Virus record (IMG/VR): IMGVR_UViG_3300049893_000388
Span: 1 to 35,558 of that record
Direction: 5' to 3' (one strand)
From: a virus
DNA: 35,558 nt
The position numbers were made by a program, and so were the translations under genes. The notes under the pieces are model-generated. The model was not told where the DNA came from. It searched no databases and worked only from the letters and a program-made list of their open reading frames with translations. Position 1 is the first letter of the stretch, and every line of letters starts with the position of its first letter. Shown here piece by piece: positions 2,587 through 7,507 of this stretch.

Positions 2587-2778
2587 ATGAGAATCTGCGA
2601 TCAGTTTCTGGGGCATATCAGGTGGATGGCTGATATGGGGGTATCGAATACTGAGATTGGAGAGGTATTTGGGTACACGGCGGAGCAGGTTCGGAAGATG
2701 GTCAGCGGCAAGGAGAGGGGATACGTGAAGGCAAAGCCTTTGTGGACGCTTGAGGCTTTGGTTAGACTTCCTGCATGA
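2587..2778 (+). CDS. Small helix-turn-helix protein next to terminase
   Basis: A 63-aa ORF with a likely helix-turn-helix at about residues 11-42 (WMADMGVSNTEIGEVFGYTA, then EQVRKMVSG), typical of resolvase- or sigma-like HTH segments. Its stop overlaps the ATG of the large terminase (ATGA at 2775-2778), so its translation is probably coupled to terminase. It could be a second DNA-recognition factor in packaging or a regulator. An internal ATG at 2626 with AGGTGG before it is an alternative start. The 119-base gap upstream (2468-2586) holds only a 10-bp palindrome at 2502-2511 and no convincing promoter. Confidence 0.6.
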   Translation: MRICDQFLGHIRWMADMGVSNTEIGEVFGYTAEQVRKMVSGKERGYVKAKPLWTLEALVRLPA

Positions 2779-4985
2779 CGCAACTAGCTGCTGCTGCTGA
2801 CGAGTTACTGAGGAGGAGGAGGGCCAAGGATTCCTTGGAGGCGTGGATGCGCTACAGGGGCGCTCCGCACAAGCCTGCTCTGCACCACAAGTTGCTGATA
2901 AGCGAACTGGAGATGGTTGAGCGTGGGGACACGCGCAATCTGATGGTAAATATGCCTCCGGGTGGAGCCAAATCCACATATGGGAGCGTGGAGTTTCCTG
3001 CGTGGTATATGGGCAGGAATCCTGAGAAGTTGATTATCGGGACGGCCAATACCGATGAACTCGCAGAAGTATTCTCCAGACGGGTCAGGAATATCGTCAA
3101 CACCGCTGAGTTCGAGCGAGTATTTGGACATACCCTGTCAGACGACAAGACTGGAGTTGGGAACTGGGTCACAACAGCCAACGGAGAATACTTCGCGGCT
3201 GGTGTCGGGGCGGCTATCGCTGGACGCCGTGGCGATCTTGGTCTTCTGGATGACCCGGTAAAAAGCCGGGAGGACGCCGATTCAGAAAGGTCCAGAGAGC
3301 GAGTTTGGCAGTGGTACGTCAACGACTTCTTGACTCGACTGAAGCCTGACGCCCGCAAGATACTGATAATGTGCATGACGGGAGATACCCGTGTGCTGAT
3401 GGCTGACGGATCAGAGACATTGCTGCGAGACATTCGGCCAGGGAATGTCGTTGCGACCAATGACGGCGGACAAATAGGCGTCGCAAGAGTGCTGAACTGG
3501 GTCAATCAAGGCCCTGATTACGTATTCACAATTAGGACGACTTCAGGCAGAATCATCCGAGCGAACAAGCGGCATCCGTTTCTTGTTTGTAGGGATAGGG
3601 GGCCTGAATGGGTGCGACTAAAAGACCTGCGTCCGAAAGACAGACTGATCTGCGTTGGGGAACATGGAAAGGCATCACTTGCAAAGCTGACGGCTGTGAA
3701 CTACCGGCCAAGTGCAAGGGGTTCTGCATGTCCCACTACTCAAAAGACAGGTGGGCTCGCGGAATCAGACCTCCATCACACAACCATGAGTCGCTTCGTG
3801 CGTCACATCTTCGACACAGATACGGAATTGGCCCTGAAGAATACAAAACATTGCTTGCCGAGCAAGGCGGGGTTTGCGCAATTTGTAGGCAACCCCCCAC
3901 ACAAGAAAATACTAGACCTGGAGCGAGGCTTTATCTCTGCGTTGACCACTGCCACGACTCCGATCAAGTCCGTGGACTACTATGCAACGACTGTAATGTT
4001 GCAATCGGACGGATCAGAACCCCTGAAAACCTGGAAGCAGCAGCACGATACCTACGACTTCATTCAAGACGAGATTGAATCCATCACGGCTGATGACTAT
4101 GAGGATGTTTTTGACATCCAGGTAGAAGGCACCGAAAACTTCATCGCCAACGGCTGCACGGCCTCGAATACACGCTGGCATGAGGATGACCTTGGGGGTC
4201 GAATCCTGGAGCGGGAAAAGAAGCTGTGGAAAGTGATATCACTTCCAATGGAGGCTCAGGAGGATGATCCACTTGGACGGGAACCTGGGGACAGACTCTG
4301 GCCTGAGTATTTCACCGATGAGATGGTGGACCTTGCCAAGCAAGATACTCGGTCTTGGTGGGCGCTATACCAACAGCAACCCACAGCTGAGGACGGGGAC
4401 TACTTCAAAAGGGAGTGGTTCCTGGAGTACGACACCCCACCGAAAGGACTGAAACTCTATGGAGCCTCTGATTTCGCTGTTACCGAGGGTGGCGGGGACT
4501 ATACGGAGCATGGTATTGCTGGAGTCGATGCCAGTTCCAACCTCTATATCCTGGACTGGTGGCGAGGGCAAAAAGCAGCAGACCACTGGATCGACCGTAT
4601 GGCTGACCTTGTTGCCAAGCACCAACCAATGTGTTGGTTTGGCGAGGCTGGACCTATCCGAAGGTCAATCGAGCCTTTCATGATGAAGCGTCTCTCGGAA
4701 AGAGAGGCGTTTTGTCGGGTCGAATGGCTACCCAGCGTGGCAGACAAAGAGGCCCGCGCCCGTGGCGTTCAGGCCATGATGGCTATGGGAAAAGTGTTCT
4801 GGCCTAGGTTTGCCGGCTGGAAAACCGAGGTACAGGGCCAGATGATGAAATTCCCCGCTGGGAAACACGATGATTCAGTGGACGTGATGAGCCTGTTCGG
4901 GCGTGGTTTGAAGCACATAAATGGTGGTCGCGGGAAAATGAAACCGTTAAACTACCCGAACTTGGGCTTACCTGGGGTACGTTGA
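2775..4985 (+). CDS. terL: Terminase large subunit interrupted by an intein
   Basis: This is the packaging motor ATPase/nuclease. Residues 1-199 hold the ATPase: Walker A at 61-68 (PPGGAKST) and Walker B at 156-160 (LLDDP region, GLLDD). Residues 466-736 carry the rest: the conserved TRWHEDDLGGR segment and an RNase H-like nuclease domain with YGASDFAVTEGGGDYT and a late HDDSVDVMSLF acidic motif. Residues 200-465 are an intein (separate entry). Removing it joins KILIM to TRWHEDD, exactly the usual terminase sequence, and gives a normal 470-aa protein. Translation is coupled to the HTH gene upstream by an ATGA overlap. Confidence 0.93.
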   Translation: MTQLAAAADELLRRRRAKDSLEAWMRYRGAPHKPALHHKLLISELEMVERGDTRNLMVNMPPGGAKSTYGSVEFPAWYMGRNPEKLIIGTANTDELAEVFSRRVRNIVNTAEFERVFGHTLSDDKTGVGNWVTTANGEYFAAGVGAAIAGRRGDLGLLDDPVKSREDADSERSRERVWQWYVNDFLTRLKPDARKILIMCMTGDTRVLMADGSETLLRDIRPGNVVATNDGGQIGVARVLNWVNQGPDYVFTIRTTSGRIIRANKRHPFLVCRDRGPEWVRLKDLRPKDRLICVGEHGKASLAKLTAVNYRPSARGSACPTTQKTGGLAESDLHHTTMSRFVRHIFDTDTELALKNTKHCLPSKAGFAQFVGNPPHKKILDLERGFISALTTATTPIKSVDYYATTVMLQSDGSEPLKTWKQQHDTYDFIQDEIESITADDYEDVFDIQVEGTENFIANGCTASNTRWHEDDLGGRILEREKKLWKVISLPMEAQEDDPLGREPGDRLWPEYFTDEMVDLAKQDTRSWWALYQQQPTAEDGDYFKREWFLEYDTPPKGLKLYGASDFAVTEGGGDYTEHGIAGVDASSNLYILDWWRGQKAADHWIDRMADLVAKHQPMCWFGEAGPIRRSIEPFMMKRLSEREAFCRVEWLPSVADKEARARGVQAMMAMGKVFWPRFAGWKTEVQGQMMKFPAGKHDDSVDVMSLFGRGLKHINGGRGKMKPLNYPNLGLPGVR
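3372..4169 (+). mobile_element. Intein inside the large terminase
   Basis: The 266-aa insert begins with Cys200 in CMTGDTRVLMADG (block A) and has a block B-like stretch TSGRIIRANKRHPFLV with His267. Further on it has EWVRLKDLRPKDRL, then block F as EDVFDIQVEGTENFIANG, and it ends A-S-N465 before Thr466. These are the hallmarks of a Hint-type splicing domain. Two catalytic positions deviate: the usual Thr of block B is Asn264, and the penultimate His of block G is Ser464. Splicing would remove exactly this block from a conserved motor motif. The middle of the insert overlaps an HNH gene in another frame. Confidence 0.9.
3608..4078 (+). CDS. HNH endonuclease nested out of frame within the intein
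   Basis: A 156-aa ORF in the -1 frame relative to terminase encodes a full homing-type nuclease. An N-terminal zinc knuckle (CKADGCELPAKCKGFCMSHY, residues about 25-44) is followed by an endonuclease VII/HNH core: GGVCAICRQ, then YLCVDHCHDSDQVRGLLCN and DCNVAIG, with paired Cys and the D-H-C-H catalytic centre, and the usual EN-LEAAARYL tail. A strong Shine-Dalgarno (AGGGGG, 3597-3602) lies 5 bases before the ATG. It ends inside the intein before block F. It could cut an intein-free terminase allele and promote homing. The intein frame stays open through all of it. Confidence 0.88.
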   Translation: MGATKRPASERQTDLRWGTWKGITCKADGCELPAKCKGFCMSHYSKDRWARGIRPPSHNHESLRASHLRHRYGIGPEEYKTLLAEQGGVCAICRQPPTQENTRPGARLYLCVDHCHDSDQVRGLLCNDCNVAIGRIRTPENLEAAARYLRLHSRRD

Positions 4986-4986
4986 C

Positions 4987-5139
4987 GTGTCTTATGCATT
5001 GCAGAACCAAATCAAGGCAATGCAGGCTCGAATTGACGAGTTACTTGAGCGCGTCAGGATATTGGAGGAAGCCCAGCGGCCACAGCGTCCGGTTCTGACG
5101 CTGAAGAAACCCGAGAAGGCTTCCAATGTCCAAAGTTGA
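4987..5139 (+). CDS. Small coiled-coil protein between terminase and portal, 50 aa
   Basis: Starting at a GTG one base past the terminase stop, this ORF reads MSYALQNQIKAMQARIDELL and continues with heptad-spaced hydrophobics to about residue 28 (a parallel coiled coil), then a Pro/Lys-rich tail. It overlaps the portal start by 14 bases. Short coiled-coil proteins at this place occur in many podovirus-like genomes and may act in packaging or portal assembly, but no function is established here. Confidence 0.6.
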   Translation: MSYALQNQIKAMQARIDELLERVRILEEAQRPQRPVLTLKKPEKASNVQS

Positions 5140-7507
5140 ACGCGACGAAGCCCTAGTTCGGGCAATCGAGATTGCCGAAGGGGAATCCTACGGCTCTGGC
5201 GACTACACGATGGACGGAGAACTCTCCGCCCAACGGTCCCAGGCCATTGACGCATACCTCGGGAGGAATACAAATCCAGCCCCGGAAGGTAATTCCCAGA
5301 TCGTTTCACGAGACCTGTTCGATACCGTCGAATGGATGCTTCCTTCGCTGGTGAGAATCTTTGCCGGTGGCGATGAGGTCGTGAAATTCAATCCTGTCGG
5401 CCCTGAAGACGACAAACAGGCCAAACAGGAGACTCTTTACGTAAACCATATCGTCACCAAGAGGAACCCGTGGACGCAGATCGTCCATGACTGGCTCTGG
5501 GATGCCTTGGTTACCAAGAATGCCTACTGCCTTGCCTATCGGGACAAGCAGATCAAGGTCGAATACGAACTCTATGAAGACCAGAGCGACGATGCATTCG
5601 CTCTATTGATGCAGGATGCAGACGACTTCGAGGTCCTGGAGCACTCACAAGAGGTCGATGAAGATGAACTGAAGAAGCAGCAGGCTTGGTTCGAGCAGGC
5701 CACTCAGCAGCATCAGATGCAGTCACAGCAGGTCATGATGCAGTGGCAACAAGCTGCTCAACAGGCCCAGATGCAAGGACAACCCGTTCCTCCGCAGCCT
5801 GAATTTCCTCCCCCACAGATGCCGCCGACGCCTTACAAGCATTCGGTGAAGATTCGTCGGACGGAAGAGGAAAAGAAGATTTGCCTGAAGGTTCTTCCTC
5901 CTGAAAAGTGCGTGATCCACCACTCGACCGCCTCGTATATGTTGAACGAGTGCGATTTCTTCGAGTATTGGGACGACGTAACTATCTCCAGTCTCAGGCA
6001 AATGGGTTTCGAGGTCGATGACGACATCCGGGACGACGTAAAAGCCGGATTCGAGACTCTGGAAGACACGGCCCGCGATCTGTACAACGAAAACAGATTC
6101 AGGGAAGAAGATACCGACCCGTCGATGCGAAAAGTACGGGTCCGCATGTGCTGGATTCGGCAGGACTACGACGACGACGGCATTGCAGAGATGCAATATG
6201 TCATTGTCGTTGGCAACCAAATCCTCTACAGGGAAGAATGCTCCAGGATTCCGGTAGCCTCAATCGTTGCCACCCCTCTGCCTCACCGTCATATCGGCGT
6301 TTCCATCGCTGACGTGATGCTGGAAGTCCAAGACTCCAAGACATCGATGTTGCGACAAGGCGTGGACAACCTGTTCCATGCCAACAACCCACGGCTTTTT
6401 GCCAATGACGGCAAGATCAACATTGATGATGTGCTAATCAGTCGTCCAGGTGGCGCGATCAGAGGAATCCAAGGCGCGGATGCGATTTTCGGCAGGGATA
6501 TTGCCCCGGTGGTCATCCCGAACATCTTCCCGCAAGCGATTCAGGGCATGGAGTACATGGACCGCATCTCCGAGCGCCGAACAGGTGTTAACGGGGTGTT
6601 CACAGGAAACGTCTCCCCAGAAGTCCTGACCCAGACCACCGGAATGGCGATGAACCAGATGGGCACAGCCGCTGCCCAGAAGGTCGAGCAAATTGCCAGG
6701 ATGATTGCACCTTCTGTTGAATATCTCTTTCAAGTCGTCCATGAACTGATCCTCAAAGGTGGTCACAAGGAAGAAGTCGTCCGCCTTCAGAATGAATGGG
6801 TAACAGTCGATCCTTCACAGTGGAAAAAGCGCTCCGATTTGACGATTGCTGTTGGCCTTGGGAGTGGGAACAAGGATACGGTCCTTGGGCACCTGAACAT
6901 GATGTTCCAGCAGCAGATGGCTCTGTTGCCGATGGGGATCACCGACCCGGCGAAGATTTACAACACCGTCAGCGAAATCGCCAAGATGGCCGGTTTTGCC
7001 AGTCCAGAACCTTTCTGGAAGCTGCCCGACCCGAACCAACCGCCTCCGCCTCCTCCTCCTGAAATCATCAAACAACAGATGGAGCAGCAGGCCGACGCCC
7101 AGAAGTTTCAGGCCGAAACGCAAATCGAGATGCAGAAGTACCAGTCCGACAAGCAACTTGAGATGCAGAAAATGGCTTTCGAGGCATCAGAACGTGAAAA
7201 AGACCGTCAACTGGAACTCGAAAAAGCCAAGATGGCAGAAGCCACAAAGCTGGCTATCGCCCAGATGCAGGTCGAAAACCAGAACGAGACCTTGGACAAG
7301 TCACAGCAGTTCGAGGCACAGAAGATGGTTGTTCAGCAATCCCATGAAGCACGAGTCAATGGGGTTGAGCAGGTCGAGAAAGAAAACTCTGATATGGCTG
7401 AGTTGTTGGTGAATCTGAATCAGGCTATCGCAGCACTTGGTCAAGCCATCAACAAGCCGAAATCGGTTGTGCGCGGCCCTGACGGCAAGATCGTAGGCGT
7501 TCAATAG
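5126..7507 (+). CDS. Portal protein, P22 gp1-like
   Basis: A 793-aa protein of the P22-type portal family, forming the dodecameric ring through which DNA enters and leaves the capsid. The N-terminal half has the family look (SQIVSRDLFDTVEWMLPSLV, then RIFAGGDEVVKF near residues 60-90). Residues about 180-240 hold a Gln/Met/Pro-rich insertion. The middle has the RTGVNGVFTGNVSPE segment before a helical region matching the portal crown. Residues about 640-760 are a long Gln/Glu/Lys-rich coiled coil, like the P22 barrel. An AAGG ribosome site precedes the ATG. The length is a little above P22 portal because of the Q-rich insert and tail. Confidence 0.92.
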   Translation: MSKVERDEALVRAIEIAEGESYGSGDYTMDGELSAQRSQAIDAYLGRNTNPAPEGNSQIVSRDLFDTVEWMLPSLVRIFAGGDEVVKFNPVGPEDDKQAKQETLYVNHIVTKRNPWTQIVHDWLWDALVTKNAYCLAYRDKQIKVEYELYEDQSDDAFALLMQDADDFEVLEHSQEVDEDELKKQQAWFEQATQQHQMQSQQVMMQWQQAAQQAQMQGQPVPPQPEFPPPQMPPTPYKHSVKIRRTEEEKKICLKVLPPEKCVIHHSTASYMLNECDFFEYWDDVTISSLRQMGFEVDDDIRDDVKAGFETLEDTARDLYNENRFREEDTDPSMRKVRVRMCWIRQDYDDDGIAEMQYVIVVGNQILYREECSRIPVASIVATPLPHRHIGVSIADVMLEVQDSKTSMLRQGVDNLFHANNPRLFANDGKINIDDVLISRPGGAIRGIQGADAIFGRDIAPVVIPNIFPQAIQGMEYMDRISERRTGVNGVFTGNVSPEVLTQTTGMAMNQMGTAAAQKVEQIARMIAPSVEYLFQVVHELILKGGHKEEVVRLQNEWVTVDPSQWKKRSDLTIAVGLGSGNKDTVLGHLNMMFQQQMALLPMGITDPAKIYNTVSEIAKMAGFASPEPFWKLPDPNQPPPPPPPEIIKQQMEQQADAQKFQAETQIEMQKYQSDKQLEMQKMAFEASEREKDRQLELEKAKMAEATKLAIAQMQVENQNETLDKSQQFEAQKMVVQQSHEARVNGVEQVEKENSDMAELLVNLNQAIAALGQAINKPKSVVRGPDGKIVGVQ

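Follow-up and report, generated by a model that had tools for sequence, protein, structure and literature searches.

Introduction

The usual picture of a homing intein is a single protein with the nuclease fused between its two splicing halves. This canonical layout is represented by TerL1-b and TerL1-c of the mycobacteriophages BAKA and Bethlehem, homing-endonuclease inteins that carry an in-frame LAGLIDADG domain; in the accessible part of the study by Kelley et al. (2016, PMC5050341), cleavage tests are described only for these two. For the TerL6-f intein of mycobacteriophage Chandler gp6, the same part reports ready splicing in an E. coli reporter. Out-of-frame HNH insertions were published for phage methylases, namely the ShiLan domain and the Pacc40 insertion (Arsenault et al. 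2025, PMC11855218), which are not regarded as inteins because no splicing domain was found there. The latter paper also cites a preprint of Gosselin et al. (bioRxiv 10.1101/2025.01.02.630785) on actinobacteriophage inteins with "non-canonical architecture", which, judging by its title and this citation, may already include a frame-nested layout for actinophages.

Here, we analyzed the terminase intein of the IMG/VR record IMGVR_UViG_3300049893_000388, whose whole stretch of 35,558 nucleotides is hereafter called the window. It differs from TerL1-b and TerL1-c in that the nuclease lies in another frame, has its own start, is of the HNH/endonuclease VII (EndoVII) type, and is located outside the intein protein. 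An earlier note on this sequence knew of no described example of such an arrangement. Given the published methylase cases, this does not hold for out-of-frame HNH insertions in phage genes as such, but it stands for an out-of-frame nuclease inside an intein, of which no description was found in the accessible literature, with the Gosselin et al. preprint as a possible exception.

Results

The Terminase Intein and the Gene Nested in It

The features of the locus are as follows.

2775-4985, + strand: terL, large terminase gene (PHROG phrog_38, 2.4e-96, and phrog_4758; TIGR01630, 3.3e-15)
2775-3371 and 4170-4985, + strand: terL exteins
3372-4169, + strand: intein, 266 aa (PF14890, 4.8e-17; TIGR01445/TIGR01443; precisely absent from the relatives L229 and L230)
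3372-3668, + strand: splicing part at the N-terminal end of the HINT domain, residues 1-99, with CMTGDTRV as block A and RANKRHPF as block B (pLDDT about 95-98 over residues 1-90; family omega-like value 0.09, purifying selection)
3590-3602, + strand: G-rich stretch resembling a ribosome-binding site, tagggataggggg (Shine-Dalgarno (SD) enrichment in the family; exact match weak in the window copy)
3608-4078, + strand: nested HNH (endonuclease VII-type) gene, 156 aa, in the -1 frame relative to the intein (PF02945, 1.2e-18; pLDDT 86)
3608-3610, + strand: HNH start codon ATG, overlapping an intein Trp codon (gaA TGG)
3669-4043, + strand: dual-coding linker in the intein frame, about residues 100-224 (disorder predicted, pLDDT about 33-48; stop-free)
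4044-4169, + strand: C-terminal HINT splicing part with blocks F and G, DVFDIQVEGTENFIANG..CTASN (pLDDT about 96-98; family omega-like value 0.05)

The terL gene is a single uninterrupted frame of 736 aa, in which the intein is continuous with the exteins. The intein had been placed by the earlier note at TRWHEDD of the large terminase, and its coordinates proved right: Cys1 is encoded by TGC at 3372 and Asn266 by AAT at 4167-4169, which is followed by T-R-W-H with Thr as the +1 nucleophile. The insertion site is of the TerL6-f type, located in the terminase C-motif (ILIM^TRWHEDD), and takes the form X^TRW in relatives. The Pfam Intein_splicing model matched the window intein and TIGR01445/TIGR01443 exceeded their own cut-offs; these models cover the N- and C-terminal splicing regions and leave the long middle unmatched. 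Splicing blocks A, B, F, and G were all identified. Upstream, a 63-aa ORF (2587-2778) lies between the genes for the small and the large terminase; no PHROGs family matched it, and by eye it resembles a small helix-turn-helix protein.

The HNH gene, described beforehand as lying in the -1 frame and stopping before block F, was confirmed in both respects, and the intein frame stays open across the overlap. The zinc knuckle and HNH core are likewise complete, as had been claimed, since all family-invariant residues are present in the window copy (C25, C30, C40, and H43; C90, C93, C126, and C129; D113, H114, and N130). These core and zinc residues are invariant in 49 sequences including the window copy; Endonuclease_7 (PF02945) matched all 49 nested HNH proteins and Intein_splicing all 49 inteins. 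With its Pfam match, DH..N core, and two CxxC pairs, the window protein has the marks of the Endonuclease VII/HNH family. When the HNH profile was compared with sequences of known structures, it matched Hpy99I and also T4 EndoVII (1.5e-8), the latter over the core only, without the N-terminal C..C..C..H knuckle. On this sequence evidence, the nested ORF is a nuclease of the EndoVII-type HNH family, for which DNA cleavage is predicted. In a sub-clade of five loci (L002, L003, L005, L011, and L024), the nested HNH is longer, about 190-250 aa, with apparent extra N-terminal zinc-knuckle repeats. Another IMG/VR contig (L028:1678-1914) encodes an HNH 44% identical to that of the window across residues 71-155.

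Selection on the Two Reading Frames

The absence of stops from the intein frame over the overlap, which the earlier note had pointed out, was examined in 75 non-redundant loci with pairwise identities below 85%. Beyond the first 30 codons of the HNH gene, no intein-frame stop was observed against 99 expected from synonymous shuffling of the HNH codons, and stops in the third frame were near expectation (616 against 651). Substitution phases were analyzed in 13 disjoint pairs. In the two splicing parts, changes fell mostly at intein codon position 3 (155/121/411 and 52/21/184 at positions 1/2/3). In the nested part, intein position 2, equivalent to HNH position 3, took most of them (190/701/282). 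The phase changes about 30-60 nt past the HNH start and reverts near 450-480 nt. A dN/dS-type comparison of each frame, suggested by the earlier note, gave omega-like values in the nested part of 0.09 for the HNH frame and 1.85 for the intein frame, and of 0.09 and 0.05 for the splicing parts in the intein frame, all from simple counts rather than an overlap-aware likelihood. The phase and stop data together indicate that what is maintained in the middle DNA is the HNH protein and a stop-free other frame, while the intein residues encoded there drift. Judged by these substitution and stop patterns, both frames are under selection. In the family linker (window 3669-4043), hydrophobic residues were slightly commoner and proline was rarer than in synonymous shuffles, so that selection for a more soluble linker is unsupported; the hydrophobic excess may simply follow from the avoidance of stops.

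Start of the Nested Gene

The HNH start lies on the intein Trp codon in all 76 non-redundant loci with a recognizable Trp after block B, as ATG in 65 and GTG in 11. The base preceding the Trp TGG is A or G in each of them, and this purine is kept even at Thr, Val, Ser, Ala, and Arg codons that have other synonyms (ACA/ACG, GTA, TCA, GCA). Given codon usage, the invariant purine has a log10 P of about -6.5; these statistics count loci less than 85% identical as independent and thus overstate significance, but the 0 versus 99 stops and the invariant start are insensitive to this. In the window, a TGA stop stands immediately 5' of the ATG in the HNH frame. The ribosome-binding site had been called a strong AGGGGG: it is G-rich (AGGGATAGGGGG), but its strength was not borne out, as the longest exact match to AGGAGGT is 3 nt. 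Across the family, SD-like matches upstream of HNH are enriched, being longer than chance would give (mean 3.37 against 2.68 expected, reached in 0 of 300 synonymous resamples). The SD signal is hence modest, a family-wide enrichment in which the window copy is not outstanding. The fixed start codon, the SD enrichment, and the in-frame stop before the window ATG point to internal initiation, not frameshifting.

Recurrence among Relatives

An initial IMG/VR search with the intein protein yielded 27 relatives, and reading them in three frames revealed the same -1-frame HNH except in one deletion type. A profile scan of IMG/VR raised the number of relatives to 384, and the 80 best-scoring ones were retrieved. 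Among the first 109 loci, the HNH core was in the -1 frame in 106 and in the intein frame in none, with the intein frame open in all 109; the other three represent one deletion type. The best 80 matches of an HNH-side search comprised 77 nested alike, two truncated but consistent, and one (L310) with a single-base shift.

After exact de-duplication, 149 distinct inteins from IMG/VR, isolate phages, and bacterial genomes constituted the family set. Of these, 144 share an HNH nested in the -1 frame; four are mini-inteins without HNH and one has the single-base shift, so that the recurrence check proposed by the earlier note came out in its favor. The intein frame is open in 148 of the 149, and none has a truly in-frame HNH. 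In-frame relatives were not found by queries with the intein, a deleted copy, or the HNH, including searches of bacterial genomes. As each scan took the best 80 matches and is biased to full-length relatives, with 80 of 384 fetched, rarer layouts, in-frame ones included, may exist among lower-ranked or remote inteins. The uniform frame suggests a single ancient insertion that was inherited with the intein.

The nested layout is present in the isolate phages Phlyer, Chandler, Sedona, Fosterous, Vincenzo, and phi1_186018. It also occurs in bacterial contigs labeled Mycolicibacterium, Bradyrhizobium, Nonomuraea, Anaerolineae, Endozoicomonas, Gallionellaceae, Sulfuritalea, Geobacteraceae, and Berkelbacteria, labels that are soft because several are metagenome bins. 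The nuclease is deleted and the splicing parts are retained in L025-L027 and L159, which look from their sequences like nuclease loss; in L159, a WGKWKNK remnant of the HNH start persists in the HNH frame. HNH is broken by a stop in L051. In L310 (1942-2740), an uncompensated 1-nt shift joins HNH to the N-terminal intein frame and breaks the C-terminal part, by error or decay.

The Desulfobacteraceae-labeled contig of L159 (4001-4444 and upstream) carries a pair of inteins in a single terminase: besides the mini-intein at TRWHEDD, a second, different one adjoins the Walker B motif (GAH^C...HN^CFLIDD). Two other groups were considered and rejected. In Faithunavirus mycobacteriophages (L035:2486-2932 and L037:2486-2932), an EndoVII gene overlaps the 3' end of a DnaB-like helicase gene by 47 nt and is not nested. 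In the terminases of Brevundimonas, Caulobacter, and Corynebacterium phages, the inteins occupy other sites, and a nested EndoVII was not seen in them.

Presence and Absence of the Intein

The closest terL relatives of the window have no intein, and their alignments break precisely at 3371/4170. One of them, L229, whose exteins are 87% identical in aa sequence, covers 2793-3371 and 4170-7418 of the window and lacks exactly the 798 bp in between. Isolates were surveyed with 600-nt empty-site probes, whose matches at 97.5-99.5% identity included both intein carriers, such as Chandler, and many phages devoid of the intein, among them Daisy and MmasiCarm; Chandler and Daisy/MmasiCarm are 99.5% identical around the site. 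Similarly, Sedona with the intein and Jabberwocky without it are 97.7% identical, and many others without it match at about 96-98%. This presence and precise absence in phages 97-99% identical around the site fits homing, as far as genome comparison can tell.

Splicing-part and HNH distances correlate beyond the extein effect (partial r 0.38), as expected if the two move together. In the terL genes of Sedona and Fosterous, the exteins are ~97% identical and most of the intein body ~55%, which on sequence comparison means that the intein body was replaced. Over its first ~150 nt, however, the intein is still near-identical in these two Gordonia phages (L030 and L031), which may mark a recombination point.

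Predicted Structures

AlphaFold models were built from 45-sequence alignments, with sequences from the phage collection left out. The HNH model was ordered, with a mean pLDDT of 86. In the intein model, a HINT core formed by residues 1-99 and 226-266 mostly reached a pLDDT of about 95-98 (residues 1-90 about 95-98), and the linker of ~124 aa (residues 100-223) was disordered (about 33-48). Foldseek gave DnaB and RecA mini-inteins as the best PDB matches of the intein model, with E-values down to 1e-9. For the HNH model, EndoVII and Hpy99I ranked at the top with weak E-values, that for EndoVII being 0.03 despite a probability near 1.0. In these models, one frame is an ordered nuclease and the other a HINT splicing domain with a disordered linker.

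Discussion

Proposed Mechanism and Alternative Explanations

The locus is very probably a mobile terminase C-motif intein, of which the homing nuclease is encoded out of frame and started separately. Ribosomes coming from the terL start would read the intein frame across the overlap, giving a precursor with a HINT domain and a floppy ~124-aa linker, from which the intein would splice itself out. Ribosomes initiating at the internal ATG/GTG on the intein Trp codon would read the -1 frame to produce a separate EndoVII-type HNH protein of ~156 aa. The most likely target of this nuclease is terL without the intein, which it would cut at the conserved insertion site, after which repair would copy in the intein and nuclease together. 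The two frames would hence constitute one selfish unit, with purifying selection holding the HNH protein, the splicing parts, and the stop-free linker. We infer HNH translation, cleavage, and homing from sequence, and the nested nuclease probably makes the insert mobile. The earlier note had proposed a nested, independently started nuclease gene that shares the linker DNA, with both products made; the two-frame selection, fixed start, and recurrence speak for such a gene.

The least probable alternative, to which we give virtually no credence, is that an ordinary in-frame HNH intein was shifted by paired indels through sequencing or assembly error. L310 alone has a 1-nt shift that puts HNH in the N-terminal intein frame, and its C-terminal part is broken. 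The same frames are shared by 144 of the 149 distinct family members, some of them from finished genomes of isolate phages, and this recurrence in independent genomes rules out a paired error. The earlier note had named compensating indels or an in-frame HNH in relatives as evidence against nesting; neither was seen in the relatives, and the shift of L310 is single and uncompensated. The -1 relation would also permit ribosomal frameshifting to fuse HNH to the N-terminal part of the intein, a route that is very unlikely because the start-codon purine is invariant at one position despite available synonyms (log10 P about -6.5), and a stop directly precedes the ATG in the HNH frame of the window copy.

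It is just as improbable that HNH is the inactive fossil of a former homing nuclease: a few copies are indeed deleted (L025-L027 and L159) or broken (the stop in L051 and the shift in L310), but the HNH-frame omega-like value of 0.09 and the lack of any variation at the core and zinc positions among 49 sequences, that of the window included, do not agree with decay. A little more weight, though still small, goes to a real nested HNH that serves packaging or DNA-junction resolution rather than homing. Its family and fold are EndoVII-like, its gene sits within terL, T4 EndoVII and HNH proteins have such roles, and phage HNH proteins can belong to packaging machines (Kala et al. 2014, as cited in the accessible part of PMC12613952). 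Against such a role, viable isolates 97-99% identical around the site are devoid of both intein and nuclease, and the nuclease was lost from L025-L027 and L159 while the splicing parts persist. The separately started homing nuclease is thus preferred over a packaging function.

Splicing and mobility would here be split over two overlapping genes, so that the nuclease needs no splicing out and the linker must only avoid stops. This provides a natural example of dual coding in which the constraints on the two frames can be cleanly separated. For inteins with long featureless linkers, it makes the other frames worth re-reading for hidden nucleases. The related laboratory phages Chandler and Daisy, which differ by this intein, make homing by an out-of-frame nuclease directly testable. 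The broader reading, that this is an ancient and widespread lineage of frame-nested mobile inteins, a two-protein selfish element in phages of several bacterial phyla with no accessible description, appears to us slightly the better bet.

Comparison with Known Systems

A canonical intein has its nuclease in frame, whereas 144 of the 149 inteins of this family carry HNH in the -1 frame. As in homing elements, the insert is precisely present or absent at one conserved site in close relatives. T4 endonuclease VII (PDB 1e7d and 1en7) shares the nuclease family and core motif with the window HNH, but is a free-standing junction resolvase, and the PDB match does not include the N-terminal C..C..C..H knuckle of the window protein. 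Chandler TerL6-f resembles the window in intein family, insertion site, and the nested -1-frame HNH, which was seen in the present analysis and is unmentioned in the accessible part of PMC5050341. Since Chandler gp6 is reported there to splice, this family has a member that splices with the dual-coded linker present. The ShiLan domain and Pacc40 insertion are alike in having HNH out of frame within an uninterrupted host gene, in overlapping frames, and in a disjunct distribution. They lack a splicing domain, whereas that of the window is clear from Pfam, the structural model, and Foldseek, and it is this HINT domain that would remove the translated linker.
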